Positions 14,392 through 28,881 of a stretch of 42,000 bases of DNA are shown here, in pieces; positions within the stretch are counted from its first letter, which is position 1, and each line of letters begins with the position of its first letter. A model generated the notes under the pieces. That model made no database searches, was not told the DNA's origin, and saw only the letters and a program-made list of their open reading frames with translations. A program made the position numbers and the translations under genes. Location: assembly GCA_903906635.1 (NCBI GenBank), contig CAIVLE010000116.1, positions 1 through 42,000 of the forward strand, read 5' to 3'. The stretch is from an uncultured Burkholderiales bacterium (lineage in GTDB: Bacteria > Pseudomonadota > Gammaproteobacteria > Burkholderiales > Burkholderiaceae_C).

Positions 14392-15561
14392 ATGATGAAA
14401 AAAAGACAATGGATTGCGCTGATCGCTGCCAGTTTGTTGGGCCTGTGCAGCGCACATGCCCAAGAAGACACCTTCAAAGTAGGGTTGTTGTTGCCCATGA
14501 CCGGGCCTTTTGCCTCCACGGGCAAACAAATGGAAGCCGGAGCTCGTTTGTATCTGCAACAAAACGGCAGCACTGTGGCGGGCAAAAAGATTGAACTCAT
14601 CCTCAAGGACGACACCAGCACGCCCGATGTGACCAAGCGTTTGGCGCAAGAGATGGTGGTCAACCAAAAGGTCAATGTCTTGGCGGGTTTTGGCTTGACG
14701 CCGCTCGCGTTTGCCACGGCACCTGTGGCCACCCAGTCCAAAACACCGATGGTGGTCATGGCTGCGGCCACATCCAGCATCACCCAGGCTTCGCCTTACA
14801 TCGTGCGCTCGAGTTTCACGGTGCCGCAGGTGGTGACCGCTTTGGCCGATTGGGCCTACAAAAATAACATCAAAAAAGTGGTCAGCTTGGTCACCGACTA
14901 CGGCCCAGGCGTGGATTCTGAAAAGTTTTTCAAAGACACCTTCATTGCCAACGGCGGCGTGGTGGTCGAGACCTTGCGCGTGCCCTTGCGCAACCCTGAC
15001 TTTGCCCCGTTCTTGCAAAAAGTACGTGACGCCAAACCTGATGCCTTGTTTGCCTTTGTGCCCGCGGGCGTGGGCACCGCCTTGATGAAGCAATTCACCG
15101 AGCGCGGCCTGGACAAAGCCGGTATCAAGGTGATTGCCGAAGGCAGCGTGACCGATGACGACATCTTGAACGACATGGGCGAGGTCGCGCTCGGCTTGGT
15201 CACCGCACACCACTACTCGGCAGCGCACAACTCGCCTCAAAACAAAAAGTTTGTCGAGGCTTTCGCCAAAGCGAACAACGGTATGCGCCCCAACTTCATG
15301 GCCGTGGGTGCCTACGATGGTATGCGCGTGATTGTGGAAGCCCTCAAAGCCACCCAAGGCAAGGGCGATGGCGACGCTTTGCTGGCCGCCATGAAGGGCC
15401 AAATTTTTGAGAGCCCACGCGGCTCGATGTACATCGACGCGCAAACCCGCGATGTGGTGCACAACATCTACATCCGCAAAGTCGAGCGCAAAAACGGTCA
15501 GCTCTACAACAGCGAGATCGAAACCATCAAAGACGTGAAAGACCCCGGCAAGACACGTTGA
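14392..15561 (+). CDS. ABC-transporter substrate-binding protein, Leu/Ile/Val-type (aromatic acid candidate)
   Basis: 389 residues. Signal peptide KKRQWIALIAASLLGLCSAH with cleavage after AQ, then the type I periplasmic binding fold opening FKVGLLLPMTGPFASTGKQMEAGARLYL. This LivK-like family binds branched amino acids, but many betaproteobacterial members bind aromatic acids. Two adjacent ATGs exist (14392 and 14395); the ggaga at 14386-14390 is better spaced for the second. No permease or ATPase genes follow; an MFS carrier starts 16 bases after the stop instead, which is an odd pairing. With the downstream hydroxylase it suggests uptake of an aromatic substrate. Confidence 0.88.
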   Translation: MMKKRQWIALIAASLLGLCSAHAQEDTFKVGLLLPMTGPFASTGKQMEAGARLYLQQNGSTVAGKKIELILKDDTSTPDVTKRLAQEMVVNQKVNVLAGFGLTPLAFATAPVATQSKTPMVVMAAATSSITQASPYIVRSSFTVPQVVTALADWAYKNNIKKVVSLVTDYGPGVDSEKFFKDTFIANGGVVVETLRVPLRNPDFAPFLQKVRDAKPDALFAFVPAGVGTALMKQFTERGLDKAGIKVIAEGSVTDDDILNDMGEVALGLVTAHHYSAAHNSPQNKKFVEAFAKANNGMRPNFMAVGAYDGMRVIVEALKATQGKGDGDALLAAMKGQIFESPRGSMYIDAQTRDVVHNIYIRKVERKNGQLYNSEIETIKDVKDPGKTR

Positions 15562-15577
15562 GCCCGCAGGTCTCGCC

Positions 15578-16879
15578 ATGCCTCGCACACCGGCTTCTGC
15601 CGATCTGATTGACTCGCGCTACGCCGCTTGGCGCTTGTTCACTACGCTGTTGTTGGTCACCTTGGGCAACAGCAGCATGTATGTGGTGGCGGTGGTGTTG
15701 CCTACGGTGCAAACCGAGTTCGGGGTCAACCGCGCCGACGCCTCCTTGCCCTACACCTTGATGATGGTGTGTCTGGGTTTGGGCGGACTGTGGACGGGCA
15801 AGTTGGCCGACCGCTTCGGCATCACGCCGGTCTTGCAAATGGGCTCGCTGGCGGTATGCGCGGGCTTTGTGTCAGCCGGCCTGTCTGGCAGCATTTGGAC
15901 TTTTGGTTTGGCCCATGGTTTGTTGCTGGGCCTCTTGGGTGGGGCATCCACCTTTGCGCCGCTCATGGCTGACACTTCTTTGTGGTGGAACAAGCGCCGC
16001 GGTATGGCGGTAGCGGTTTGCGCCAGCGGCAACTATGTGGCGGGTACTTTTTGGCCCCCTGTGGCGCAGTGGGGGATCGAAGTCCTGGGCTGGCGCCACA
16101 CCTACATCGGGATGGGTGTTTTTTGTGGTGTGGGCATGGCCTTGTTGTCTTTGCGCATGCGCCAGCGGCCGCCTTTGGTGACCCTGTCCTCGAGCCATCC
16201 CCGTCCAATCAATCCCACCAACCCCAATGCTGCGAGCCTGAACACCAGTCAGCGGGCGTTTGGGCTGAGCCTTGGGCAAGCGCAGTTGTTGCTGTGTGTC
16301 TCTGGCTTTGCTTGCTGCGTGGCCATGTCCATGCCCCAGGTCCACATCGTGGCCTATTGCTCTGACCTGGGCTTTGGTGCCGCACGTGGGGCTGAAATGT
16401 TGTCACTCATGCTCGCCTGTGGCATCGTCAGCCGCTTGGTCTCAGGGTGGATCTGCGACCACATCGGGGGAATTCGCACCCTCTTGTTGGGCTCCGCTTT
16501 GCAAGGCGTGGCCTTGTTGTTGTTTTTGCCATTTGATGGCTTGGTGCCGCTGTACCTGATCTCGGCCATGTTTGGCTTGTTCCAGGGTGGCATCGTGCCG
16601 TCTTACGCCATCATCGTGCGCGAACACTTCCCGCCTGAGCAAGCGGGCGCGCGCGTGGGCGCTGTCATCATGGCGACCTTGGTGGGCATGGCGGGCGGTG
16701 GGTGGATGTCGGGCAAGGTGTTTGACCTCACCGGCTCCTACCAAGCTGCCTTTCTCAACGGCATCGGTTGGAATTTGTTGACTGTCTCGATCGCTTCTTG
16801 GCTGTATTGGCGAGTCAGTCGCACCACCTCGCAGCACGTCGGTGAGAGCTCGCCGAATTCACAAAGACCTCAGGCATGA
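15578..16879 (+). CDS. MFS transporter
   Basis: 433 residues, strongly hydrophobic with about 12 membrane segments. The loop 2-3 motif of the major facilitator superfamily is visible as GKLADRFGITP, followed by the usual small-residue helices (GLLLGLLGGASTF). The central loop at about 205-225 is Pro/Ser/Asn rich. This resembles monocarboxylate or aromatic-acid exchange carriers of the oxalate/formate-antiporter-like group, such as those importing or exporting pathway acids. Its stop overlaps the ATG of the next gene (ATGA at 16876), so it is coupled to a flavin monooxygenase whose substrate or product it probably carries. Confidence 0.87.
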   Translation: MPRTPASADLIDSRYAAWRLFTTLLLVTLGNSSMYVVAVVLPTVQTEFGVNRADASLPYTLMMVCLGLGGLWTGKLADRFGITPVLQMGSLAVCAGFVSAGLSGSIWTFGLAHGLLLGLLGGASTFAPLMADTSLWWNKRRGMAVAVCASGNYVAGTFWPPVAQWGIEVLGWRHTYIGMGVFCGVGMALLSLRMRQRPPLVTLSSSHPRPINPTNPNAASLNTSQRAFGLSLGQAQLLLCVSGFACCVAMSMPQVHIVAYCSDLGFGAARGAEMLSLMLACGIVSRLVSGWICDHIGGIRTLLLGSALQGVALLLFLPFDGLVPLYLISAMFGLFQGGIVPSYAIIVREHFPPEQAGARVGAVIMATLVGMAGGGWMSGKVFDLTGSYQAAFLNGIGWNLLTVSIASWLYWRVSRTTSQHVGESSPNSQRPQA

Positions 16880-18564
16880 CCCCCACCGCATCGACAGACG
16901 TCCTCATCGTGGGGGGCGGCCCCAGCGGCCTGATGTTGGCCATTGAGTTGGGATGCCGCAACGTGCCCTGCATCTTGGTCGAGCCTCAACTGCTGCCTCC
17001 CGAGCGCCCCAAAGCCAACGCCACCTCCGCACGCACCATGGAGCATTACCGTCGCCGTGGTTTTGCTGACCAAGTGCGCAGCGTGGGCATGGCCGCAGAC
17101 TATCCCCAAGACGTGATGTATTGCACCCGATTGGCAGGCAAAGAACTGGCACGATTTCGCATCCCCAGTCGCGCGCAAGCGGCGCAGCAAAGCGCCTTTG
17201 GGGACTATGGCGAAGCCGCTTGGCCTACCCCAGAGTTGCCGCACCGGGGTCAGCAGATGTACATCGAGCCGATCTTGCGCCAACAACTCACGCGCTACCC
17301 CAGCGTGATCACACGCTACGGGTGGCAAGTGGATCAAGTGTGCGACGGCACCCAGCATGCGAGCGTGGTTCTCACCGAAGTGGCCACCCAGCGCACCCAA
17401 GCGCTACAAGCGCGGTTTGTGGTGGGATGCGACGGACCTCGCAGCATCGTGCGCCACACCATGGGCACCAGCTACGAAGGAGCCAGCCAAGAGCAACGTG
17501 ATTATTTTGGCGGGCAGATGCTGTCGATCCACTTTCGCGCGCCCGGTTTGTACCTAGCCTTGGCCAAAGGTCCCCTGGCCCAGCCGGCTTGGCAGAGCTG
17601 GATCATGAACCCACAACTGCGCGGTATCTTGGTGGCCATCAACGGCATCGATGAGTTTGGCATGGGCATTCAACTCAAACCCGGTCAAGGCATTGACGAT
17701 GTCAATGTCGATGCCACCTTGCGAGCGCTCACGGGCTTAGACAGCGTGCCGTTTGACTACGAGGTGTTGCACAAAAGCAGTTGGACTGCGGGCTTTATGT
17801 TGGTGGCCGAGCAGTTCCAAACCGGACGCTTGTTCATTGCAGGAGACGCCGCCCATTTGTTCACCCCCACCGGTGGCATGGGTTACAACACCAGCATCGA
17901 CGATGCTGTGAACTTGGGCTGGAAGCTCGCGGCTGTGGTGCAGGGCTGGGCCCCCGAGTCCCTGTTGCACACCTACTTTGAAGAACGCCACCCCATCGCC
18001 AAGCGCAACACACAGTTTGCGCGCCTCATGGCAGAAAGCATCGGGCGCATGCCTATCGCGGCATCGCTGGAGCAAGACACCGTGCAGGGTGAACAGGCCC
18101 GAGTCGCTTTGGCCGATGCCGTGCGCGCCCATGCCCATGCGGAGTTCAACATTCCAGGCTTACAGCTGGGGCTGCGCTACCAAAGCCGTATCGTGGCGCG
18201 TGAAACTGGCCAGGCCCCGCCCGATGCCCCCAATGTCTATGTCCCCAGTGGGTTTGCGGGATGCCGCGCACCGTTTGTCAAACTCGCAGACGGCAGGTGG
18301 CTGCCCGACTTATTTGGCAGGGACTTCACGGTGTTGGCCTTGGGCGAGCAGTCCGAAGAAGACACCTGGGTGGAGTCAGCCAGGGCACTCAAGGTGCCCC
18401 TGACGGTGGTGCACCAACAAGACGCGGCAGCGCGCGCGCTGTACGGGGCTGATTGGGTGCTGGTTCGTCCCGATCACCATGTGGCTTGGCGTGGCAACAG
18501 CGCACAGCAGGCCTCAGCCGTGCTGGCCCATGCTGCGGGTCTGCAGGCGGGTGAGGTGTTGTAG
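16876..18564 (+). CDS. FAD-dependent phenol/aromatic hydroxylase (PheA/TfdB-like)
   Basis: 562 residues. The Rossmann start is VLIVGGGPSGLMLAIELG, then RPKANATSARTMEHYRRRG (typical of this group), the DG motif GCDGPRSIVRHTMG, and the FAD motif RLFIAGDAAHLFTPTGGMGYNTSIDDAVNLGWKL. The C-terminal 120 residues form the thioredoxin-like domain of phenol-hydroxylase-type enzymes, ending VLVRPDHHVAWRG. The reaction is NAD(P)H- and O2-dependent ring hydroxylation in the cytoplasm. It is the last gene of a three-gene plus-strand unit with an ABC binding protein and an MFS carrier. Its stop is 1 base from the stop of the convergent thioesterase gene. Confidence 0.88.
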   Translation: MTPTASTDVLIVGGGPSGLMLAIELGCRNVPCILVEPQLLPPERPKANATSARTMEHYRRRGFADQVRSVGMAADYPQDVMYCTRLAGKELARFRIPSRAQAAQQSAFGDYGEAAWPTPELPHRGQQMYIEPILRQQLTRYPSVITRYGWQVDQVCDGTQHASVVLTEVATQRTQALQARFVVGCDGPRSIVRHTMGTSYEGASQEQRDYFGGQMLSIHFRAPGLYLALAKGPLAQPAWQSWIMNPQLRGILVAINGIDEFGMGIQLKPGQGIDDVNVDATLRALTGLDSVPFDYEVLHKSSWTAGFMLVAEQFQTGRLFIAGDAAHLFTPTGGMGYNTSIDDAVNLGWKLAAVVQGWAPESLLHTYFEERHPIAKRNTQFARLMAESIGRMPIAASLEQDTVQGEQARVALADAVRAHAHAEFNIPGLQLGLRYQSRIVARETGQAPPDAPNVYVPSGFAGCRAPFVKLADGRWLPDLFGRDFTVLALGEQSEEDTWVESARALKVPLTVVHQQDAAARALYGADWVLVRPDHHVAWRGNSAQQASAVLAHAAGLQAGEVL

Positions 18565-18565
18565 A

Positions 18566-19030
18566 TCAGGCGGTGAAGCGTTGCAGCTGAGTCAGCATGG
18601 GGCCTGGAATGGGCACCCGCTCGCGCACCTCTCGGCTGATGCAAATGGGTGAAAAGCGCCCCGTGAAAATACGCCGTCCATCGACTTGCTTGGCCTCGAC
18701 GTGGATGTCGTAGCTGTGCGCACGGATGTGGGAGACCGTGCAGTGCATGTCAAACTCATCTTCGGGCCACAGCGCACCATGGAACGTCAAGTCCATGCCC
18801 TTGCAAGGCGTGTCTACACCCAGCGTTTTGATCCATTCAAAGTAACGGCCTTCGCCCAACTCAGCAAAAAAATAGCTCGCAGCGATCAGCAAGTACTCGC
18901 TGAACTTACCGGTGTAGACCACGCCTGCAGGGTCGCAGTCGGCCCAGCGCACGCGCTTGCGCACCACCAAGGGGTGGCGCGAGACCACACTTTCGTAGGT
19001 TGACACATGGGGGGCGCTGTCAGCGTGCAT
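18566..19030 (-). CDS. Hotdog acyl-CoA thioesterase, 4-hydroxybenzoyl-CoA thioesterase-like
   Basis: 154 residues. The active-site segment VRWADCDPAGVVYTGKFSEYL matches the GDCDPAGIV signature of 4-hydroxybenzoyl-CoA thioesterase, with D33 at the position of its catalytic Asp17. It probably hydrolyses an aryl-CoA thioester. It is the last gene of the seven-gene minus operon and overlaps the hydroxylase gene by 11 bases, consistent with releasing the hydroxylated acid straight after the hydroxylase step. Confidence 0.87.
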   Translation of the reverse strand: MHADSAPHVSTYESVVSRHPLVVRKRVRWADCDPAGVVYTGKFSEYLLIAASYFFAELGEGRYFEWIKTLGVDTPCKGMDLTFHGALWPEDEFDMHCTVSHIRAHSYDIHVEAKQVDGRRIFTGRFSPICISREVRERVPIPGPMLTQLQRFTA

Positions 19031-20237
19031 GGACAGCCTCTAAGGGTTCAGCGTCTGTCAACGCCCTGTGCGTCAAGCCCTCGCGTTGAAATTGCGCAAA
19101 CAACTCGGGGTATTGCTGCTGCAAGCGTTCTTCGCTCAAGCGACCGGTGCGGGTCATGAACGCGTGAATGAAACCATAGGGGGTATAGCGTCGCATCCAC
19201 TCACCAAAGTGCTCGTACCACAGGTAGGACTTGCGTGAGGCGTTCAAGAGTTTGTCTTTGGCCGGACCGCGTGTCTGGGCAAAGTGCGCTAAGCGCGCCA
19301 AGGCGCTTTGATCGGGCTCGCCTGCAGCCACCGGTGCGGTCAAAGCATCGGCCAGCGCAATCGCGTCTTCCATGGCGATGCGCGTGCCTGAACCAATCGA
19401 GAAGTGGGCTGTGGTGTGTGCGTCGCCTATCAACACATGCTTGCCCACCGACCAGTGCGTGTTTTGCGTCACGGGGAATTGCCGCCAGTTGGAATGGTTG
19501 GAGATCAGGGGCTGCCCATCTAGCTCAGACGCAAACACCTGCTCAAACACCTCTTGGCGTTGCTCGTTGCTCATGGCTTGCATCCCTAAGGTGCGCCAGG
19601 TGGCGTCGTCGCACTCCGCCACGAAGGTGCTGGCCGAGCTGCTGTAGGGGTAGTAATGGGCCACAAACGAGCCGCCACGCCACTCTCGAAACACCAAGGC
19701 CGATTTGGTGAACACGCGCGCAGTGCCGTACCACGCAAAGTGATTGGTCAGAAATGACTTGGTGGTGCCAAACTCATTTTCAAAGGCGGCACGCACCACG
19801 GAGTTCACGCCATCGGCACCGACCACCACGTCGGCATCGGCCAAGCCATGCTCAGTGAGTTCGTCGGGGTGTTCGATGCGCACGCCAAAACGCACCTCCA
19901 CACCCGCCTCTTGGGCGGTGCGTTGCAGCACATGGAGCAAATCGATGCGGGCAATGGCCCCTCCTTTAGCGGGGTGTTGAATGTCAATCGGATGGTGTTG
20001 CACTTCGATGGTTTGAACCCCATTGAAATTCATCTTCTCAATCAAGTGCTCAAACACCTGTGGGTCGGCTGCTTGCAAACGGTTGAGGCCAGAGTCAGCC
20101 AACACCACACCAAACCCAAAGGTTGAGTCGGCGCTGTTTTGTTCAATCACGCTCACAGACCAGTCGGGTTGTCGGCGTTTGAGCAAGATGGCCAGGTACA
20201 GCCCTGAGGGGCCACCGCCCACGATGGCGACTTTCAT
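19020..20237 (-). CDS. FAD monooxygenase, salicylyl-CoA 5-hydroxylase-like
   Basis: 405 residues. It opens MKVAIVGGGPSGLYLAILLK and continues SADSTFGFGVVLADSGLNRL, the DTFGxGVV pattern typical of the salicylyl-CoA 5-hydroxylase and 2-aminobenzoyl-CoA monooxygenase N-domain group. The DG motif is VVGADGVNSVVR; the FAD motif is HVLIGDAHTTAHFSIGSGTR. Enzymes of this group hydroxylate aryl-CoA thioesters using NAD(P)H and O2. A C-terminal helical tail carries YTPYGFIHAFMTRTGRLS. Flanked by a thioesterase (11-base overlap) and, two genes upstream, by an aryl-acid ligase in the same operon, the acyl-CoA reading is well supported by context. Confidence 0.85.
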   Translation of the reverse strand: MKVAIVGGGPSGLYLAILLKRRQPDWSVSVIEQNSADSTFGFGVVLADSGLNRLQAADPQVFEHLIEKMNFNGVQTIEVQHHPIDIQHPAKGGAIARIDLLHVLQRTAQEAGVEVRFGVRIEHPDELTEHGLADADVVVGADGVNSVVRAAFENEFGTTKSFLTNHFAWYGTARVFTKSALVFREWRGGSFVAHYYPYSSSASTFVAECDDATWRTLGMQAMSNEQRQEVFEQVFASELDGQPLISNHSNWRQFPVTQNTHWSVGKHVLIGDAHTTAHFSIGSGTRIAMEDAIALADALTAPVAAGEPDQSALARLAHFAQTRGPAKDKLLNASRKSYLWYEHFGEWMRRYTPYGFIHAFMTRTGRLSEERLQQQYPELFAQFQREGLTHRALTDAEPLEAVHAR

Positions 20238-20488
20238 GCGGCGCTCTCGACAATAGTCAGCACATCGTTGTCAAAGTGGGTGATCTGTCCGACCAAGCCC
20301 CCGGTCAACGCCCCATGCCACACCGCGGGCTTGAAGCCTAGGGTTTTGCGCTTCAAGCTGATTTGCTGCGGCGCGCGGATGCGCCAATATCCTAGCCGTG
20401 GACCATCGACTTGGTACTCGGGTACTTCGCGCGCATGCGCCACCAAGGGCAAAAACTCTTCTACATTGAGGACAAATATCGTGGGCAT
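20234..20488 (-). CDS. Small conserved-looking protein of unknown function in the aryl-CoA operon
   Basis: 84 residues; family not recognised. It begins MPTIFVLNVEEFLPLVAHAR and ends in a FDNDVLTIVE segment, with a basic centre (SLKRKTLGFKP) and one Trp-His pair. There is no signal peptide, membrane segment or Cys. Its ATG overlaps the preceding VOC stop by one base (TGATG) and its own stop overlaps the hydroxylase ATG (ATGA), so it is coupled on both sides, strong evidence that it is translated. A TTG three bases upstream is an alternative start. It could be a small subunit or partner of the VOC dioxygenase or the hydroxylase; this is inference only. Confidence 0.7.
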   Translation of the reverse strand: MPTIFVLNVEEFLPLVAHAREVPEYQVDGPRLGYWRIRAPQQISLKRKTLGFKPAVWHGALTGGLVGQITHFDNDVLTIVESAA

Positions 20489-21108
20489 CAATGGGACTCC
20501 TGGGCCTGCTCAAACGCCTGGGCCAAGGCGACGCCCTTTTTCAGCCAGACTTGGTCGATCTTTTCAAACGGCTGCTGGGCTTGCTCCAGGTCCATTCCAG
20601 CTTGCAGGGTGCGGGCAGCGTCTTGAATGTCAACCGCTTCAAACGGTCGAACTTGCCAAGTGATCTCCAGCGAATAGCCATTGGGGTCGTTGAAGTAAAT
20701 CGACTCAATCACTTCATGACGAATTTGGTACTTGACCTCAATGCCAGCGGCTTCGATCTTGGCGCGGCACTCCAACAAGGCTTCGCGTGTGTCCACGCGC
20801 CATGCTGTGTGCGAGGCGCGGTATCGGTAGTCATCGTGCACCGTCACAAAGTCGGGTGGCGTGGTGCCGATGTAGTAAAAAAACGCGATCGTGCTGTGGT
20901 TGCCGCTGTCAAAAAAGAAGTGCAAAAAGTCAGCATGGTCTTCTGGGCCCCAGCCGCGCGCTGAAATGGCATGCACCAGCGGCAGCCCCAACAAGTCACG
21001 GTAAAAGTGCACGGTTTCAGTCAACTTCCAGGTCGGGCGTGCCGTGTGGTGCACGCCCGCAATGGGAATGGGCTGACGGGTTGGGGTGGCTGAGGGGATG
21101 GTGGTCAT
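20488..21108 (-). CDS. Single-module VOC protein, putative ring-cleavage dioxygenase
   Basis: 206 residues from the ATG at 21108. A TTG at 21129 overlapping the ligase stop is possible, but no ribosome-binding site supports it, whereas agagaa precedes the ATG. A full metal triad is present: H20 or H21 (GVHHTA), H100 (ASHTAW) and E148 (SLEITW), with the catalytic-pocket segment YFNDPNGYSLEI. Such one-module proteins include extradiol dioxygenases, glyoxalases and isomerases. It lies between the aryl-acid ligase and the 84-aa gene in the operon, where gentisate-type pathways normally place a cupin dioxygenase, so ring cleavage is the favoured role. Confidence 0.82.
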   Translation of the reverse strand: MTTIPSATPTRQPIPIAGVHHTARPTWKLTETVHFYRDLLGLPLVHAISARGWGPEDHADFLHFFFDSGNHSTIAFFYYIGTTPPDFVTVHDDYRYRASHTAWRVDTREALLECRAKIEAAGIEVKYQIRHEVIESIYFNDPNGYSLEITWQVRPFEAVDIQDAARTLQAGMDLEQAQQPFEKIDQVWLKKGVALAQAFEQAQESH

Positions 21109-21125
21109 CGGCGTGTTCTCTGGTG

Positions 21126-22811
21126 TCAAGGCGAGTTTTTTTCAATTTGGAGCTTGTTGGCAATCAAGGTTCGCAGGGCGGGCTTGTTGAGTTTGGATGC
21201 GTTGGTGAGGGGGAACTCTTGCAGCACTTCGATGCGTTCCGGCCATTTGAATTTGGCCATACCTGTCTCTTCTAAAAAGCGGCCCAGTTCTGCCGTGGTG
21301 GGCGCCACAGCGCCGTCGCGCAACGTGACGAAGGCGCAGATGCGCTCGCCGTAGACCTTGTCGGGCATGCCCACGATGGCCGTGGCCGAGATGGCCGGGT
21401 GGCGGTTGACTTGCAACTCCACCTCCTCGCAGTTGACCTTTTCGCCCGCGCGGTCCACCACGTCTTTGGTGCGACCGCGGAACTGGTAGTAGCGCTTGCC
21501 GTCAATGTCTCTAAACAACATCAAGTCGCCCGAGCGGTAAAAGCCCTGGCTCGTGAAGGCCTGAGCATCGCGCTCCGGGGCGTCGTAATAGCCGTGGATG
21601 GTGTAGGGCCCAGCAAACGCACATTCGCCTTCGACACCGGGTTGTTCAATTTCCTCTTCGCTGCCAATTTTGAACAACTTGACTTGGTCAAATGGCGACA
21701 CCGGGGCACCCACCATGGTGTCGCGCACCTCTTGCGGATCGCTGTCTTGCGTGAGCATGATCACGCCCTCAGTCATGCCAAAGATGTGATACACGGGTGC
21801 ACCCAACAGGTCGCGCAAGGCCGGGGCGTTGTTGGCGCTGATGACCCCTCGCAGGCTGCCTAAGGGCAACGCGCCCGATTGAACCGCGGGTTTGAGCTTC
21901 TCCACCAAAGGCCCAGCCATCACGGTCCAGGTGGGTTCGCAGCGCTTGAAAATATCGCCCAAGGCCTCAGGCGCCAAACTGGTGGCGATGGCCACGTTGC
22001 CCCCGGTCAATAAAAACGGACCGAAACAGCACCCCATGTTGAGGTTGTGCATCATGGGCATGGGCATGAACAACACGTCGTCGCTGCGGTAGCCGTTCCA
22101 AGCCGCAACCGAGCGCATGTTGTAGATGTATTCGTTGTGAAACCGCGGAATGATTTTGGGCACGCCAGTGGTGCCGCCAGACAGCTGAAACACCGCCACT
22201 TGAAACGGGTCGCGCGGTACTTGAGCAAGCAATGCGCGGGCGCTCTCTTGGGTGATTGATTCGATCAGGTTTTGTAAATGTTGGGCCTGCCCGCGCTGCG
22301 TGCCACGGGCTTGCACGATGCCCGCCAGCGTGGGCACCACGGCTTGCATACGCTGGGCAAATGCCACATCGTCAAACTTGGGGTCATCGCCTTGCACAAA
22401 CATCAGCCGCGCTTTGGCATGGTTTCCCAAGTAGCCAATCTCAAGCTCTCGGTGCGCGGCCAGGGTGCAGATGGGAATCAAGCCTGCTTTGAGGCAGGCG
22501 ATGAAGCCCACCACCAGCTCGTTGCAGTTGCCGATCTGAAAAATCACCCGGTCCAAGGGCGCAAACCCCATCTGGATGAACGCACCGGCCAAGCGGTCGG
22601 TCATCTCTTGCAGCTGGGCGTAACTCACGCTGCCCTCGCTGCCGCTGAGTGCGGTGCGCTTGGCGTGCTGATCAAACGAGGCGCTGAACGCCTGGTCCAT
22701 GGTCTCGTGGGTCAATGCGCCGGCATCGACATAGCGGCGCAAGTCGGCTTGTGGGGCATAGACCACCCCCGGCATGGGGTGGCGAACTTGGTATTGGCGT
22801 GTGGTCAGCAT
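21126..22811 (-). CDS. Aryl-acid adenylate/CoA ligase, DhbE/SdgA family
   Basis: 561 residues of the ANL superfamily. The P-loop is FQLSGGTTGVPKIIPRFHNE, followed by A8-type GFYRSGDL and the catalytic-Lys region NASKLNKPALR. The whole sequence tracks 2,3-dihydroxybenzoate-AMP ligase (for example GPYTIHGYY and RAGEKVNCEEVE). In the pocket, PMMHN places Asn where DhbE uses Asn235 for the 2-hydroxyl. My alignment puts Cys at the DhbE Ser240 position, a change that I recall as typical of salicylate activators. So the substrate is probably a 2-hydroxyaryl acid. With no NRPS or siderophore genes here, a catabolic CoA ligase is preferred over siderophore assembly. Confidence 0.87.
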   Translation of the reverse strand: MLTTRQYQVRHPMPGVVYAPQADLRRYVDAGALTHETMDQAFSASFDQHAKRTALSGSEGSVSYAQLQEMTDRLAGAFIQMGFAPLDRVIFQIGNCNELVVGFIACLKAGLIPICTLAAHRELEIGYLGNHAKARLMFVQGDDPKFDDVAFAQRMQAVVPTLAGIVQARGTQRGQAQHLQNLIESITQESARALLAQVPRDPFQVAVFQLSGGTTGVPKIIPRFHNEYIYNMRSVAAWNGYRSDDVLFMPMPMMHNLNMGCCFGPFLLTGGNVAIATSLAPEALGDIFKRCEPTWTVMAGPLVEKLKPAVQSGALPLGSLRGVISANNAPALRDLLGAPVYHIFGMTEGVIMLTQDSDPQEVRDTMVGAPVSPFDQVKLFKIGSEEEIEQPGVEGECAFAGPYTIHGYYDAPERDAQAFTSQGFYRSGDLMLFRDIDGKRYYQFRGRTKDVVDRAGEKVNCEEVELQVNRHPAISATAIVGMPDKVYGERICAFVTLRDGAVAPTTAELGRFLEETGMAKFKWPERIEVLQEFPLTNASKLNKPALRTLIANKLQIEKNSP

Positions 22812-22847
22812 GGGGTGAGGTGTGTGTTGCAGCAGTGCGTCTTGGGC

Positions 22848-23825
22848 TCACTCAGGCTTCATGCCTAGCGTGCGGATGACGCCACCAAACAATTCCCTTT
22901 CGCTTTTGACAAAGCGCTGGGCATCGGCCACCGAGCCGGGGGTGGCGTAGGTGCCAAAGTCGCGGAACTTGGCCAATACATCGGGTTGCTGCATGGCCAC
23001 ATTGATGTCGTTGTTGAGTCGCTGCAAGATGGCCGCAGGCGTGCCTTTGGGGGCCTGAAAGCTGAACCAACCGCTGATGTTCAAGCCTGGAATGGTTTTA
23101 TTGGCCAGGGGAATGCTCTCCAAGCCTGGCAATTCGGACTCGGCCGCTACCGCCAGCGCACGCAATCTTCCGGACTTGACCAATTGAATCAGTGGGCCTG
23201 TGCCGTCCACATACATGGCGATGTCACCGTTGACGACGGATTGAATGCCTTGTGAAGTGTTGGCAAAGGAGACTTGCTGGAACTGAACATTCGATTTGAT
23301 GCCCGCCACTTCCGCGGCCAAATGCGGGATGGATGTTCGGGTGGGGTTGCCGATGGCAATTTGGTCGGGCTTGGCTTTGGCCATGGCAATGGCATCGGCC
23401 AAGTTTTTGGCGGGGTTGCTCGCGTTGGTGACAAACAGCATCGGTGTTTTGCCTGCGATGGCAAAGGTCTCAAAGTCGCGTTCTATGTCGTAGGTGGCTT
23501 CTTTGTAAGTGACTGGCGTGACCACTACCACAGCGGCTTGGTTCAAGCCAATGGTGTAACCGTCGGCGGGCGCTGCTTTGAGCAAGTTCATGGCCACAAT
23601 GCCGCCCGCGCCGGGCTTGTTGTCGACCACGATGGATTGGCCCAGGCTCGCGGTGAGTTTGTCGCCAATGATGCGGGCCGCCAAGTCAGGCGCGCTGCCC
23701 GCGGGTGCAGGCACGATCAAGCGGATCGATTTTTGGGGCCAAGCGCCGGTTTGTGACCAACTGCAAAGCGCTGCAGCACCCAGGCACGTGGCCAGCAGGG
23801 TGCGAGAGAGGTGTTTCAAAAGCAT
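22848..23825 (-). CDS. Bug-family solute-binding protein of the aryl-CoA operon
   Basis: 325 residues. Signal peptide LLKHLSRTLLATCLGAAALC with cleavage near SWSQ, then WPQKSIRLIVPAPAGSAPDLAARIIGDKL. A ggag ribosome-binding site precedes the ATG at 23825. It is separated by 36 bases from both the upstream hydrolase and the downstream ligase, so it is an internal operon gene. Its ligand is probably the acid activated by the ligase. No TctA/B membrane genes occur in the operon. Confidence 0.9.
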   Translation of the reverse strand: MLLKHLSRTLLATCLGAAALCSWSQTGAWPQKSIRLIVPAPAGSAPDLAARIIGDKLTASLGQSIVVDNKPGAGGIVAMNLLKAAPADGYTIGLNQAAVVVVTPVTYKEATYDIERDFETFAIAGKTPMLFVTNASNPAKNLADAIAMAKAKPDQIAIGNPTRTSIPHLAAEVAGIKSNVQFQQVSFANTSQGIQSVVNGDIAMYVDGTGPLIQLVKSGRLRALAVAAESELPGLESIPLANKTIPGLNISGWFSFQAPKGTPAAILQRLNNDINVAMQQPDVLAKFRDFGTYATPGSVADAQRFVKSERELFGGVIRTLGMKPE

Positions 23826-23861
23826 GGGGTGTCTCCGGAGTCGTTGTTGTGATTTGAAAAT

Positions 23862-25112
23862 TCAGCGCGCTTCGTGCAGCCACTGCTGGACCAAACGTCC
23901 GGCCAAGACTTGTCCGGTCTCTTCCCCCTCGGCCAATGCTTGGCCGTGGTGGTTGCCGCGCACGCGTTCGCGCCTCTTGTGGGAGGTGCCGATGGATGCG
24001 TAGATGGCTGCCATGTCAGATGGAAATGCCGCTTGGTCCCCGGTGTACTCAATCACCAGAGAGGGGACCTCAATCTCAGGGCCACATTTCTCGAAACTCG
24101 CGTTGGAGCTGATGCCCGACCAAGTGGACAACCAAGACTCTGCGGTGACCATGCGGGCAAAACCCACGCTGCCCCAATTGGAGGCAAAGGGGTCACGCCC
24201 CCACAAGCCACCCACCACACGGTCAGAGGGGTCGAGTGACAAGTCCCAGCAGCGCAAGTCAGCATCGGTGCGCCAAATGGCGGTGATGGGCGTGTGGGCG
24301 GCCAGTCGTTGGGTGTGTAGCGACGTGTCGCCGTCTTTGATTTTTTTGCGCGCCTGCGCGCGCGTGGCCAAGATGGCACGTGCATGGGCGTCCAAGCGCT
24401 CGACGCGCGCGTGCTGTGCGGCACGGTAGCGGCTCACAAACTCAGGGCTGTAGCGGGATGAGGCGGGCGGCGTGACAAACCCGTTGTGGGTGTCGAACGG
24501 GTCAAGCGTTGGATCCACCGACAAGGGGTCGTGCTCGTCGCTGACCGAAGGGTCGATGCCGTTCATCAGCAACTTGCCTTGACCGGGGTGGGGCGAGACA
24601 AAAATCAAGTCATCCGGGGCGGGCATATTGGCCCCCGCCAGGTCCACCGGGCGTCCACCTGGTGTGCGTGCTATGCGTTGCTCGGGGGCGCGCAAGGCCT
24701 GCTGGGTGTAAAAGGCATACAAGCCCGCACCGCCGGAGTTGCCCAACAACACAATGCGCTCAAACCCCAGGCTGCGCAAATGCGCCATGCTGGCGGCCAC
24801 GTCCAGCAGGGCCAGCTCATGCTCCAAGCGCAAGTCGTTGCCAATCGAGCGGGGCGCTTGCACATAGGCGGCACAACCCGCGTCCAGCACATCGGGTACC
24901 AAGTAAGGCGTGCCTGTGAACTCGCGTGGGTGCATCAAACACACCACGGTTTTTTCGTGCCCCGTTTGCGCGTACAGCAAACCCAGTGTGCGCTGGTTGT
25001 CCGCAGTGTGCAGACTGTATGGGCGGGTGGTGAAAGGCCGGTCCATGCGTTGAGGGTTCCAGCCTGCGCCTCGCAAGCCAGCGGTGACTTTGCCCTTAGG
25101 GGTCTGACTCAT
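23862..25112 (-). CDS. Large alpha/beta hydrolase, first gene of the TetR-controlled operon
   Basis: 416 residues, no signal peptide. The nucleophile elbow is LLGNSGGAGLYAF with Ser126 in G-N-S-G-G; an acid is likely in EYTGDQAAFPSD near residue 360 and the catalytic His in GNHHGQ near 385. A long insertion between about 150 and 300 (Asp/Ser rich, then basic) makes it larger than typical hydrolases of this fold. It may release the aromatic acid from an ester or amide before uptake or activation. It is divergent from the TetR gene across an 81-base spacer, and is the operon's first gene, so it shares the putative operator. Confidence 0.75.
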   Translation of the reverse strand: MSQTPKGKVTAGLRGAGWNPQRMDRPFTTRPYSLHTADNQRTLGLLYAQTGHEKTVVCLMHPREFTGTPYLVPDVLDAGCAAYVQAPRSIGNDLRLEHELALLDVAASMAHLRSLGFERIVLLGNSGGAGLYAFYTQQALRAPEQRIARTPGGRPVDLAGANMPAPDDLIFVSPHPGQGKLLMNGIDPSVSDEHDPLSVDPTLDPFDTHNGFVTPPASSRYSPEFVSRYRAAQHARVERLDAHARAILATRAQARKKIKDGDTSLHTQRLAAHTPITAIWRTDADLRCWDLSLDPSDRVVGGLWGRDPFASNWGSVGFARMVTAESWLSTWSGISSNASFEKCGPEIEVPSLVIEYTGDQAAFPSDMAAIYASIGTSHKRRERVRGNHHGQALAEGEETGQVLAGRLVQQWLHEAR

Positions 25113-25139
25113 AGCGGCGTCTTACAATTAATTTAGATG

Positions 25140-25161
25140 GTCTCAATTAAACTATTGAGAC
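25140..25161. promoter_or_regulatory. Perfect inverted repeat, candidate TetR operator
   Basis: Arms GTCTCAAT (25140-25147) and ATTGAGAC (25154-25161) are perfect complements around the 6-base spacer taaact. The repeat sits in the 81-base gap between the divergent hydrolase operon and the TetR gene. On the minus strand a weak -35/-10 pair (TTGAGA, 16 bases, TAAGAC) overlaps the left arm, so binding would block the operon promoter. Size and symmetry suit a TetR dimer. Confidence 0.7.
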
Positions 25162-25193
25162 AGTCACAAATAAATCAAGAAAAACCCTGATCG

Positions 25194-25964
25194 ATGTCAA
25201 ATAAAGTCTCCCCGACAGCGACCCTGGCACGCAAGCGCGGCCGCCCGAGCCGCCATGAAGCTTCCGAAAGCGGGGGCGCCACCACCATCACCCGAGAGCA
25301 AATCTTGGCCACCGCCACGGCCATGGCCAAGACCGAGCCCTTGGGGGATATCTCGATGGTGGGCTTGGCGCGCGAGCTGGGGGTGGCCCCTACCTTGATA
25401 CATTACTACATTGGCAGCCGAGACGATCTGATCTCGGGCGTGGCCAATCGGTACTTCAAAGAGCGTTGCTCGCGCTTGCAAGCGCTGACCGGAGATTGGA
25501 AAAAAGATCTCTGGTGCGAAGCCCATCAGTCATTTGCCATGGGGGTGGAGTACGGCGGTGTGTTGCGCTACATGATGTCGCACAACCGCTTTCGCTTGTT
25601 CCAACAAGTCAGCGAAGGTGAGTCCGACTTTGGTGTGCTCTACCTGGATCGCGTCGCCAGTATCTTTAAGCGCGCAGGCTTTAAGCCCCAGCACGCTGCG
25701 ATGGGCTACCACTTGATGTCGCAGTATGTGATGACCTGCGCCTATGCACAGGTCAGCCGTCAGTTGCCCGCCTTTCATGCGCAGTACATCCAAGACCACA
25801 TCCACTCTGCCCCGCAAGGTGAACTCTCGGGGGCACAGTATTTTGCGGATGCTTTCAGCACGCTCGACTCTGAGACTGTTTTTCCAGAGGGCTTGCGGCT
25901 GTTGATCGACAGCTTTGATCTGTGGCTGCCCCCCAGCAAGCGAGGCAAGCCATTGTCTAAATAA
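25194..25964 (+). CDS. TetR/AcrR-family transcriptional regulator
   Basis: 256 residues. A basic N-terminal tail (RKRGRPSRHE) precedes the TetR helix-turn-helix at about 35-85: ISMVGLARELGVAPTLIHYYIGSRDDLI. The rest is a helical ligand-binding domain. Divergent from the aryl-CoA operon, with a perfect inverted repeat in the spacer, it is probably that operon's local repressor, released by the substrate or its CoA ester. It is convergent with the VOC gene at 25978, 13 bases away. Confidence 0.92.
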   Translation: MSNKVSPTATLARKRGRPSRHEASESGGATTITREQILATATAMAKTEPLGDISMVGLARELGVAPTLIHYYIGSRDDLISGVANRYFKERCSRLQALTGDWKKDLWCEAHQSFAMGVEYGGVLRYMMSHNRFRLFQQVSEGESDFGVLYLDRVASIFKRAGFKPQHAAMGYHLMSQYVMTCAYAQVSRQLPAFHAQYIQDHIHSAPQGELSGAQYFADAFSTLDSETVFPEGLRLLIDSFDLWLPPSKRGKPLSK

Positions 25965-25977
25965 TAGACTTAATCGA

Positions 25978-26571
25978 TCAGGGATTACGAAGAGGTGCAA
26001 TCGGCAGGTGCTCGGTACGCACAAGAAAGTTCGACTCAGGCTCGCCCGAGCGCAAGCGTTGCAGCCATTCATCAGGTTCAAACTCCACGCCAATCGGGTT
26101 TTGAGCAAATCCGGGGCCCTTCATAAATGAATTGGCCTCTTCGTTGCTTGGGTAAACGTCAACTTGAAACTCCATGCGGTTTCCGTCAGGATCGCCGTAG
26201 TAAAGCGAGATCGTGACGCCGTGGTGTAAGCGCCAGTAGGGAAGAATGCCCATGTCTTTGAGTTGTGCGTAGTTTTCGATCAGCTCGCGCACCGAGTTGA
26301 AGGTGTAAGCCACGTGGTCCGTGCCAACGCGATCTTTTCGCTCTTTGGGGCCATCGGGTTCAAACACCGATAAATTCAAAAATGCCACCCGGTGGTGTTC
26401 TTCGTCATACGTGACAAAAGCAATGGCAGGGTTGTAGTGCTGGATCTTGGCATCAAACACTTTTTGATACCAAGCGATCATTTCCTCAAAACGGTGGGTG
26501 CGATAAACGATGTGAGCAAACTTGGAAGGACGAATGCGCGCAGGGGTTGTGTATGAAGTCATCGTATTCAT
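25978..26571 (-). CDS. VOC-family protein, putative extradiol dioxygenase
   Basis: 197 residues. A complete triad is visible: H20 (FAHIVYRT), H86 (GTDHVAYTF) and E134 (NRMEFQVDVY), with the GDPDGNRMEF segment common in catechol-dioxygenase-like VOC proteins. The C-terminal 55 residues (EEANSFMKGPGFAQNP onward) are an extension beyond one VOC module. The start at 26571 has a strong ribosome-binding site aaggag. It is the last gene of an operon with a Bug protein, a SnoaL-like protein and a GST. Confidence 0.83.
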   Translation of the reverse strand: MNTMTSYTTPARIRPSKFAHIVYRTHRFEEMIAWYQKVFDAKIQHYNPAIAFVTYDEEHHRVAFLNLSVFEPDGPKERKDRVGTDHVAYTFNSVRELIENYAQLKDMGILPYWRLHHGVTISLYYGDPDGNRMEFQVDVYPSNEEANSFMKGPGFAQNPIGVEFEPDEWLQRLRSGEPESNFLVRTEHLPIAPLRNP

Positions 26572-27283: not shown

Positions 27284-27901
27284 TCAAGTGTTGAGCCAAG
27301 TGCGACCTTGCGCATACAAGCGTGTCAGCACCTCGCTGTTGGGGGTGGGTAAGCCTTCGGTGATGGTGGCGCCGCCTTGTGACTGCATATAGGCCAGGTG
27401 GCGGTAGCCCTCTGGGTTGCGGGCCAACACAGCCGGATCGAGCGCGAGCTGGGTGGCTGGGTCGAGCACATCCATGCGGTCTTTTTCGTAAATCGGCACA
27501 CGCTGCTGAATGCGCCAGGCATCGCCTTGGCGAACGAACTGGTCGAAAAACCGACCGTAACAGGTGACATCTACTTCCACCCCGTGGACCATGCCGCGCG
27601 CGAGCAAGATCATGCGCGTCTCTGCCAAGGCCTTGTCGCCTTGGATGTCTAGGGTGGCCGCGCCAATGAAGTGCTGCGCCTTGGCGCCCCGCTGGGCGGC
27701 TTCGGTGGAGCGGTCGACAAACTCTTGCGCCGGGCCCACAAACCAGGTGGTGTACATCACCGCATCGGCTGTGTAGAAAGAACGCAGTTGCTCCCAACGT
27801 CCGGCATCGCGGGCGAGCCCCCAGTCTTGAACGACTTGGGTGATGGCCGCGCGGTCAAGCAGGGTTTGCAGTGTCATGGGTGGGGTGGGGTGTGGGGCCA
27901 T
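27284..27901 (-). CDS. SnoaL/NTF2-like protein, ring-hydroxylating-dioxygenase beta-subunit-like fold
   Basis: 205 residues from the ATG at 27901, 2 bases after the Bug stop; an internal ATG at 27877 is an alternative. It begins LQTLLDRAAITQVVQDWGLARDAGRWEQL and continues SFYTADAVMYTTWFVG, the opening of NTF2-like SnoaL_4 proteins. Relatives act as small isomerases or hydrolases or as beta subunits of oxygenases; no alpha subunit is nearby. The C-terminal third (LDPATQLALDPAVLARNPEGYRHLAYMQ) is an extension after the cone fold. The catalytic role is not deducible. Confidence 0.8.
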   Translation of the reverse strand: MAPHPTPPMTLQTLLDRAAITQVVQDWGLARDAGRWEQLRSFYTADAVMYTTWFVGPAQEFVDRSTEAAQRGAKAQHFIGAATLDIQGDKALAETRMILLARGMVHGVEVDVTCYGRFFDQFVRQGDAWRIQQRVPIYEKDRMDVLDPATQLALDPAVLARNPEGYRHLAYMQSQGGATITEGLPTPNSEVLTRLYAQGRTWLNT

Positions 27902-27903
27902 GG

Positions 27904-28881
27904 TCACTCTGCTTTGATGCCTGCTTGGCGCAAAAACTTGGGCCATTTCTCGGTTTCTACTTTGACAAATTGTTCGGTCTCTTTGCCTGGCATGTTGAAC
28001 ACGCGCACCCCAGAGCCTTCGAGGCGTTTGCGCAAGTCCGCCTGCTGCATCACCTTGCCCATGGCGGTGCGCAAAGTCTCGACCACCGACGCTGGGGTTT
28101 GGCTTGGCGCAAAAATGCCAATCCAACTCTCCAGCACCAAGCCGGGCAAGCCTGCTTCGCGACCAAACGGAACCTGCGGCAACAAGGGGTCGCGGCTGGC
28201 GTTGGAGGTCACGATGGCTTTCACGCGATCGCCCTCTAAGAAGGGCCGCACGGTGGCGGTGTTGTCAAAAAACAAGTCCACCCGACCCCCAAACAAATCG
28301 GTGTAAGCCGGTTGGGCGCCTTTGTAGGGAACTTCCAAAATATTCACATGGGCCAGGCTCTTGAGCAAGGCGGCAGCGACGTGCTGGCCTGTTCCCGTGC
28401 CGCCGGTGGCAATCGTCAGTTTGCCGGGGTTGGCGCGTGCAAAGTCCATCACCTCTTGCAGCGTGTTCAAGGGCAAGTCCTTGCGTGCAATCAGCGTGTA
28501 CGAAAACGACCCGGCCAGCGCCACCGGCACAAAGTCTGTGGCGGGGTTGTAGGGCAACTTGTCGTACAGCCCGGGGGTGAAGGCAATGTTCGCCAAGCCG
28601 CCCATCAGCAAGGTGTAGCCGTCGGGTGCAGCCGCCGCTGCCGCTTGGGTGCCCACCACAGTGCCCGAGCCGGTGCGGTTTTCAACCACCATGGCTTGCC
28701 CCAATTCGGCGGAGAGCTTCTCGGCCAACACACGTCCCACAAAGTCGTAGCCCCCGCCTGGGGCGGTGGGCACGATCAGACGCATCGGTTTGATTGGGTA
28801 GTTCTGGGCCAGTGCTTGGCCGCACAAGAGGCCCAGGGTGATCAGCACAGGGGCTGACAGGCGAAGAAAAAAATGCGTCAC
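27904..28881 (-). CDS. Bug-family solute-binding protein (GTG start)
   Basis: 325 residues. Signal peptide THFFLRLSAPVLITLGLLCG with cleavage after ALAQ, then NYPIKPMRLIVPTAPGGGYD, the Bug signature. The only start matching the signal peptide is GTG at 28881, with an agg-type ribosome-binding site. It heads the operon of SnoaL-like, GST and VOC genes; the stop is 2 bases from the next start. A 28-bp palindrome separates it from the upstream carbonic-anhydrase-like gene. Confidence 0.9.
   Translation of the reverse strand: MTHFFLRLSAPVLITLGLLCGQALAQNYPIKPMRLIVPTAPGGGYDFVGRVLAEKLSAELGQAMVVENRTGSGTVVGTQAAAAAAPDGYTLLMGGLANIAFTPGLYDKLPYNPATDFVPVALAGSFSYTLIARKDLPLNTLQEVMDFARANPGKLTIATGGTGTGQHVAAALLKSLAHVNILEVPYKGAQPAYTDLFGGRVDLFFDNTATVRPFLEGDRVKAIVTSNASRDPLLPQVPFGREAGLPGLVLESWIGIFAPSQTPASVVETLRTAMGKVMQQADLRKRLEGSGVRVFNMPGKETEQFVKVETEKWPKFLRQAGIKAE

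Follow-up and report, generated by a model that had tools for sequence, protein, structure and literature searches.

The stretch of DNA analyzed here (the window; 42,000 nucleotides of contig CAIVLE010000116.1, assembly GCA_903906635.1, from an uncultured Burkholderiales bacterium) carries a block of eight genes (18566-25964) which probably constitutes an operon, under TetR control, for the breakdown of a salicylate-type (2-hydroxybenzoic) acid. Judging from the encoded proteins, the acid would be converted, via its coenzyme A (CoA) ester, to maleate and pyruvate. This reading is built on the observed gene order and its conservation, the protein families, the active-site residues of a VOC protein, the fusion of this protein to a small partner in other genomes, the remote homology of the small partner, and the linkage of an isomerase-like gene.

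The window represents contig C116 of a 3.04-Mb assembly of 262 contigs (92% complete). The block is complete, and all eight open reading frames (ORFs) were confirmed. Its features are as follows (lengths in amino acids, aa):

25194..25964 (+): TetR-family regulator (TetR_C_1), divergent; PF02909, 3.1e-5
25140..25161 (no strand): candidate operator in the divergent intergenic region; GTCTCAAT-N6-ATTGAGAC, a perfect inverted repeat with 8-bp arms
23862..25112 (-): alpha/beta hydrolase, 416 aa, putatively acting on the (maleylpyruvate-type) product of ring cleavage; no Pfam/NCBIfam match; S126, D359, H388/H389
22848..23825 (-): Bug/TctC periplasmic solute-binding protein, 325 aa; PF03401, 3.3e-46
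21126..22811 (-): aryl acid ligase (AMP-binding), 561 aa, with the salicylate-type motif HNLNMGC; best PDB match 5wm2
20488..21129 (-): VOC protein (type I extradiol-like), putative dioxygenase for ring cleavage; 213 aa from TTG, likely start ATG 21108; PF00903, 3.2e-13
20234..20491 (-): MmoB/DmpM effector-like small protein; 85 aa from TTG, 84 aa from ATG 20488
19020..20237 (-): flavin adenine dinucleotide (FAD) monooxygenase (FAD_binding_3), 405 aa, salicylyl-CoA 5-hydroxylase-like, flavoprotein half only; NF006101, 9.3e-93
18566..19030 (-): hotdog (4HBT_2) thioesterase, 154 aa, motif WADCDPAGVVY; PF13279, 3.4e-13

The pathway that we infer for this gene set, including its substrate, metal, site of cleavage, products and sequence of steps, can be summarized as follows: (i) the Bug protein would bind the acid for uptake, (ii) the ligase would form its CoA ester, (iii) the FAD monooxygenase would hydroxylate this ester para to the hydroxyl group (5-hydroxylation, giving gentisyl-CoA if the acid is salicylate), (iv) the hotdog thioesterase would free the 2,5-dihydroxy acid, (v) the VOC protein, probably iron-dependent and acting with the MmoB/DmpM-like 84-aa protein as its partner, would open the ring between C1 and C2, (vi) the alpha/beta hydrolase would cleave the diketo acid so formed to give maleate and pyruvate, and (vii) in many relatives, the product of a linked isomerase gene would convert maleate into fumarate. 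The C1-C2 cleavage in this scheme is modelled on the action of a VOC homogentisate dioxygenase on homogentisate.

Organization, conservation and substrate-side enzymes

With the listed starts, the seven genes of the minus strand are separated by two gaps of 36 bp each, followed by overlaps of 4, 4, 4 and 11 bases, and this tight spacing suggests that they form a single transcript. The TetR gene and the minus-strand set are divergent, with 81 bp between them. An earlier note on this DNA had described seven same-strand genes with coupled or short junctions and a divergent TetR gene, and its coordinates were confirmed. Neither the hydrolase nor the 84-aa protein matched any family at the default threshold in the Pfam/NCBIfam search of the block proteins.

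The inverted repeat between the divergent genes carries low weight, with arms of 8 or more bases appearing in 63 of 5000 shuffles. Among seven relatives its sequence is kept in one (the near relative L002), and no sigma-70-like promoter was found in the region 25050-25260.

Scanning of genome contigs with the window hydroxylase yielded 42 loci, of which 29 contain the VOC and small-protein genes (the cassette). Relatives of the other components were found at most of these 29 loci in the case of the ligase (27), the hydrolase (26), TetR (23) and the thioesterase (21), and an isomerase-like gene was linked at 13. Thus, in a neighbourhood comparison of the kind proposed in the earlier note, the genes are conserved together, and since the block recurs in other genomes, a chance grouping can be ruled out. 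The remaining 13 loci comprise L029 (on a contig that starts with the small-protein gene), L030, and a group of 11 distantly related hydroxylases (L033-L043; 34-38% identical) that lack the cassette and were excluded from the counts.

VOC relatives were also found in 69 plasmid records. In the 13 plasmid stretches examined, the small protein was present in 10, the hydrolase in 11 and the isomerase-like gene in 7; the carriers (alphaproteobacterial and actinomycete plasmids among them) include Tistrella, Pseudosulfitobacter, Variovorax, Cupriavidus, Rhodococcus, Streptomyces and Tsukamurella. The cassette of Cupriavidus metallidurans CH34 is L057. Whole-genome samples rarely contain the small protein (4 of 398 other genomes of the family, 1 of 60 others of the genus and 1 of 368 others of the class); these values are lower bounds, as scoring at the class and family levels was confined to the 13-14 best first-look candidates of each genome. 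The class-level match is marginal (2.2e-4 over 23 positions), and the genus match is probably the genome of L002. No description of the cassette was found in a literature search that left most subscription papers outside its reach.

On the substrate side, the best PDB match of the ligase is the salicylate-AMP ligase 5wm2 (6.2e-91). In five alignments taken from its 12 PDB matches, the Cys of the HNxxxxC motif was shared with the salicylate ligases 5wm2 and 7tyb, whereas the dihydroxybenzoate ligases 1md9, 6e8o and 4iz6 carry Ser. The same Cys is present in 31 of the 34 cassette ligases that align at this position (the exceptions are L059, L076 and L079; no letters were obtained for L016, and L030 and L042, which do not belong to cassettes, were excluded). 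The score against TIGR02275 was 349 bits, below the 723-bit cut-off; with 5wm2 as best match and the salicylate-type motif, the protein counts as a dihydroxybenzoate/salicylate-type aryl acid ligase. The earlier suggestion that the substrate might differ from that of the known pathway has so far gained no support, the ligase motif being like that of salicylate ligases.

The best NCBIfam match of the hydroxylase is the salicylyl-CoA 5-hydroxylase model NF006101 (311.7 bits, the cut-off being 1078; the match covers positions 1-386 of 768), and its nearest PDB chains are those of VioD. The thioesterase, whose PF13279 and PF03061 matches are both over the cut-off, is of the 4HBT type, and contains the Asp motif WADCDPAG, which has a catalytic role. 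A hotdog-fold gentisyl-CoA thioesterase is known (PMC516016). Activation of the acid, hydroxylation of the CoA ester and release by the thioesterase, as the earlier note had outlined them, are supported by homology and context.

The VOC protein and its small partner

Among PDB sequences, the VOC protein is most similar to 9u42 (1.5e-14 with the single sequence, 2e-20 with a profile), an Acinetobacter protein titled homogentisate 1,2-dioxygenase. Residues H28, H107 and E155, the putative metal ligands, are identical in all 50 aligned VOC rows, as are H138 and Y145, and a further His (position 70) occurs in 49 rows. The window protein combines this 2-His-1-carboxylate set with a PF00903 match and matches to VOC-type folds. 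Of three neighbourhoods containing 9u42-like genes, that of Ideonella has the gene between hppD and fahA, and that of Acinetobacter sp. NCu2D-2 has it after fahA and maiA.

The similarity to 9u42, the contexts of the 9u42-like genes and the shared active-site residues make it plausible that a single-domain VOC enzyme acts here on a 2,5-dihydroxy acid, and the VOC protein is, from its sequence, a credible ring-opening dioxygenase.

In a tree, the 40 VOC proteins with an adjacent or fused small protein form one clade (support 99/92), and six homogentisate dioxygenase-like rows are placed on a separate branch (84/99), so that the window protein is related to the 9u42 clade and lies outside it. 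Three hydrolase-linked VOC rows that lack the small protein also fall outside the 40-row clade. The finer placement is unsure because some rows are long-branched.

Two 9u42-like genes are present in the same genome. They (L089, 2458-2994 on the minus strand, and L090, 6027-6560 on the plus strand; contigs C192 and C155) encode proteins 69-72% identical to 9u42; one adjoins a fumarylacetoacetase-like gene, and the other is preceded by a 559-aa ORF (with an FAD-enzyme-like start) and an 86-aa ORF. In the window itself, a second VOC-family protein of 197 aa is encoded just past the TetR gene (25978-26571, minus strand). It has the same five aligned residues and is very distant (21% identity to 9u42, long branch).

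The small protein is fused to the VOC protein or directly follows it in all 29 loci that have both: the two form one ORF in 18 and successive genes in 11. Cupriavidus provides an example of a natural fusion. This order is kept even where the next gene encodes the hydrolase or a regulator (plasmid stretches), which makes the VOC protein, rather than the hydroxylase, the most likely partner of the small protein. No diiron monooxygenase that might serve as a partner is named in the 11 annotated plasmid stretches (two further records carry no annotation).

Family searches with the window copy of the small protein alone gave no match. A profile of 21 relatives found chains of the toluene-4-monooxygenase effector as 7 of its 11 PDB matches (best E 0.26), a result which is not significant by itself because HIV-1 protease constructs appeared at 0.33. 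Weak matches to PF02406 (MmoB_DmpM) were obtained for five out of 10 small proteins, the strongest being that of L023 (E 0.0025, 18.4 bits) and the window copy giving none, and in a second set for 2 of 8 (one of the eight, L055, having been read on the wrong strand); none of the small proteins tested reached the Pfam gathering cut-off of 25 bits.

A profile-profile comparison (hhalign) was then made between 30 small proteins and 12 PF02406 proteins (12 of 13 matches, a partial one having been dropped). It gave a probability of 91.2 and a score of 38.2 over 42 columns in the first half of the protein, compared with at most 20.1 for 200 column shuffles, 11.8 for the reversed profile and at most 16.3 for 16 unrelated stretches. 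These results point to a remote relationship between the small protein and the MmoB/DmpM effectors, one that is drawn from the relatives and the profile-profile comparison, since the window copy alone and the PDB profile search do not suffice. As the Pfam cut-off is not reached, we classify the small protein by its sequence as effector-like and not as a member of PF02406. The earlier note listed the 84-aa protein, and missed its probable role as an effector-type part of the VOC enzyme.

Hydrolase, end product and neighbouring genes

The model of the hydrolase (pLDDT 83) has DcsB, a Chloroflexus hydrolase and a monoglyceride lipase, all alpha/beta hydrolases, as its nearest folds. An alignment of 17 sequences shows no variation at S126, D359, H388 and H389, and S126 is preceded by a strand, as expected of a nucleophile elbow. 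Homologues of the hydrolase adjoin VOC relatives at L062, L080 and L081, where relatives of the small protein and the hydroxylase were not found. The hydrolase thus travels with the VOC protein without the hydroxylase, and it seems to be part of the ring-opening step, fitting better after ring opening than as an upstream esterase. The latter assignment was considered and held less likely for the same reason, although another FAD oxidoreductase adjoins the hydrolase at L062.

The surroundings of L080 (plasmid pMI1 of Sphingobium sp. MI1205) include, by annotation, isopropylmalate dehydratase subunits, a CoA transferase, a hydroxymethylglutaryl-CoA lyase and a P450, and this gene set is perhaps a related module for another ring.

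Cleavage of gentisate between C1 and C2 followed by hydrolysis yields maleate and pyruvate, and maleate is likely to be the end product here as well. The linked isomerase-like protein belongs to the Amdase/Asp-Glu racemase family, and is annotated as maleate cis-trans isomerase in two plasmids and as Asp/Glu racemase in four. Where the cassette has no linked copy (16 genomes), a homologue is encoded elsewhere in 12 (E<=1e-20); at the same threshold, a sample of 100 genomes from the window's family gave homologues in 11, one of which (G513) is itself a carrier of the small protein.

The pathway drawn in the earlier note, which ran from activation of the acid to ring opening by the VOC protein, was right in outline as far as homology tells. 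Our analysis adds the partner domain of the VOC enzyme, a place for the hydrolase (which had been recognized as such and given no step, its association with ring opening being overlooked), and maleate as the likely end product of a scheme that had stopped at ring opening.

At three loci (L023, L025 and L029), the hydroxylase gene is followed by Rieske oxygenase alpha/beta genes (families checked for L023 only, where they are benzoate 1,2-dioxygenase-like and under the cut-off), and no relatives of the ligase, thioesterase or hydrolase were found nearby.

The window contains several other genes around the operon. Convergent with it (14392-18564, plus strand) are genes for a Peripla_BP_6 binding protein, an MFS transporter and a 562-aa FAD aromatic hydroxylase (PRK06126-like, 592 bits). 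A SnoaL-like domain protein (PF13577, 2.6e-20) is encoded at 27284-28126 on the minus strand, with an uncertain ORF start. By tblastn, eight Bug/TctC-like solute-binding proteins are encoded within the 42 kb, at approximately 3.6-4.6, 8.1-9.1, 9.7-10.6, 11.7-12.5, 22.8-23.8, 27.9-28.8, 29.7-30.7 and 36.8-37.7 kb.

Alternative explanations and known systems

Several observations weigh against the proposed pathway. H78 of the VOC protein, put forward from the window sequence as the equivalent of BphC H195 (presumably a second-shell residue, with H241 and Y250 in BphC numbering), was rejected in this role because it is not conserved in the 50-row alignment, the homogentisate dioxygenase-like rows included. 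No tyrosine-pathway gene is visible in the third 9u42-like neighbourhood (Acidovorax), and a literature search found no paper on 9u42, the assignment of which comes from its PDB title and gene context.

In a fold search with a modelled VOC-small-protein fusion from L011 (pLDDT 89), 9u42 was first by E-value only (TM-scores 0.25/0.39, root-mean-square deviation 17.6). Ranks 2 and 3 were BphC-type extradiol dioxygenase chains (1kmy and 1han, TM 0.36-0.37), and glyoxalase, FosA and epimerase chains were interspersed in the first 50 matches, some epimerases reaching 0.65 by target length. With these groups mixed among the matches, the model-based search points to the VOC superfamily and to nothing finer, and does not separate dioxygenases from glyoxalases or epimerases. 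A glyoxalase or epimerase function was nevertheless held less likely, given 9u42 as the nearest PDB sequence and the dioxygenase-like residue set, the fold search being neutral. The claim of the earlier note that the VOC protein opens the ring is therefore favoured by sequence (9u42 nearest, shared residues) and left undecided against a glyoxalase or epimerase by the fold search.

Other points of this kind concern the gene set. A hydrolase relative is missing at 3 of the 29 loci, two of which also lack a ligase and have Rieske genes instead, and no thioesterase relative was found at eight. The isomerase-like protein tested scored under the NCBIfam cut-offs (EutA, 68 of 318 bits; arylmalonate decarboxylase, 61.5 of 225), and no maleate-isomerase homologue was found at E<=1e-20 in this genome or in those of L002, L023, L025 and L028. 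The enrichment of isomerase homologues in cassette genomes is only suggestive, because the background set differs taxonomically from the cassette genomes and such genes can serve other pathways.

The loci at which no thioesterase relative was found retain the VOC protein (present in 29 of 29), and would suit a scheme in which the latter acts directly on the CoA thioester (gentisyl-CoA) to open the ring, with the thioesterase acting later or only as a release enzyme. An additional partner domain could allow a ring-opening enzyme to recognize CoA esters, and methylmalonyl-CoA epimerases are among the fold matches; we consider this scheme rather unlikely, however, as the substrate named in the title of the nearest solved relative (9u42) is a free acid and the thioesterase is linked at 21 of the 29 loci. 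Rather improbable, too, is an N-heteroaromatic or alkyl-substituted hydroxy acid as the substrate, with maleamate or citraconate as the product and a deformylase, amidase or diketone hydrolase in place of the maleylpyruvate-type enzyme. Maleate isomerases also serve nicotinate pathways, and the Sphingobium VOC and hydrolase relatives beside P450, CoA-transferase and LeuCD-like genes suggest that other rings are handled by such proteins, but no recurrent amidase gene was found beside the cassette (among gene clusters with at least four loci, names checked by eye) and the ligase motif is that of salicylate ligases. It is very improbable that the hydroxylase acts at C3, giving 2,3-dihydroxybenzoyl-CoA for an ordinary extradiol, catechol-type VOC dioxygenase. 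VOC extradiol dioxygenases typically act on catechols, and the best NCBIfam model of the ligase is a dihydroxybenzoate ligase (under the cut-off); on the other hand, the best match of the hydroxylase is a 5-hydroxylase family, the ligase motif has Cys and not Ser, and the link to a maleate isomerase does not fit catechol-type cleavage.

Lastly, the gentisate formed by the operon might be cleaved by a cupin gentisate 1,2-dioxygenase encoded elsewhere, leaving the VOC protein to other work (isomerization or by-product handling), which we regard as distinctly unlikely. A family search of the operon proteins found no such cupin, in agreement with the earlier view that a VOC protein stands in its place. 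That view had been made to depend on the cupin not being the co-induced partner from another locus, and a gentisate dioxygenase-like cupin gene is indeed present on contig C46 of this genome (262.6 bits, cut-off 442). Moreover, matches over the cut-off occur in 18 of the 29 relatives' genomes scanned (28 with the VOC cassette, L017 and L018 being counted once, plus that of the truncated L029), with two more at 256-262 bits, and the glyoxalases and epimerases among the fold matches would fit another role for the VOC protein. Against this, the C46 gene adjoins its own 3-hydroxybenzoate 6-monooxygenase gene, together with that of an FAH-family hydrolase, the VOC protein has a dioxygenase-type residue set and a dioxygenase as its nearest PDB sequence, and nine of the 29 genomes (of unstated completeness) have no cupin match above 43 bits. 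Because of these nine, the cassette does not seem to need the cupin in general; given the C46 gene, the cupin could also serve in this organism, side by side with the VOC protein and perhaps for different acids.

Gentisate and salicylate catabolism are textbook pathways, salicylate being a plant defence signal, and their annotation expects a cupin dioxygenase and an isomerase. The proposed pathway may extend further, and we suggest, tentatively and with somewhat less than even confidence, that the cassette is a widespread cupin-independent gentisate-to-maleate module, in which a VOC gentisate 1,2-dioxygenase needs an (often fused) MmoB/DmpM-like effector domain and is followed by a new maleylpyruvate hydrolase. 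If so, an effector of the diiron-monooxygenase kind would work on an unrelated mononuclear metal dioxygenase, extending effector-type control beyond diiron monooxygenases, and recruitment of the VOC fold to para-diol acids would have taken place twice (for homogentisate and in this pathway). Genomes without a cupin gene could then still use salicylate, and three protein groups that are unnamed or generically named in the records examined would gain candidate functions.

The closest parallel on the substrate side is the salicylate route of Streptomyces sp. WA46, which is said to employ the SdgA ligase and the salicylyl-CoA 5-hydroxylase SdgC. The SdgC step is covered in PMC13215587. The window operon would share with the sdg route the activation of the acid, the hydroxylation of the CoA ester and the release of the thioester; however, the sdg set uses a cupin gentisate dioxygenase, in place of which the window operon has the VOC protein with its small partner and a hydrolase dedicated to the pathway. 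A further difference is that the match of the window hydroxylase to NF006101 is limited to the first half of the model.

With regard to the final steps, the operon resembles the direct-hydrolysis branch of gentisate degradation in Pseudomonas alcaligenes, in which maleylpyruvate is hydrolysed without isomerization, as proposed here. The maleylpyruvate hydrolase of that branch is reportedly HbzF, and HbzF belongs to another protein family. The name HbzF occurs in PMC11705938. In contrast to the HbzF branch, the hydrolase of the window operon is of the alpha/beta type and matches no Pfam family, and many of the relatives' loci have an isomerase-like gene.

In the case of the ring-opening enzyme, the comparison is with 9u42, the VOC homogentisate 1,2-dioxygenase of Acinetobacter. 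It is also a single-domain VOC protein, with the same five active-site residues, a similar local motif and 32% identity to the window protein over residues 3-138, and its substrate is, by title, a para-diol acid, as proposed for the window protein. No small partner gene, however, follows the 9u42-like gene in the two annotated tyrosine-pathway neighbourhoods.

The small protein finds its counterpart in the MmoB/DmpM effectors of diiron monooxygenases (PF02406), which are likewise of approximately 85 aa and give a collinear profile match over the first half; the C-terminal pattern resembles theirs by eye only. It differs from them in scoring below the Pfam cut-off, in apparently having a VOC enzyme as its partner, and in being fused to this enzyme in many genomes.

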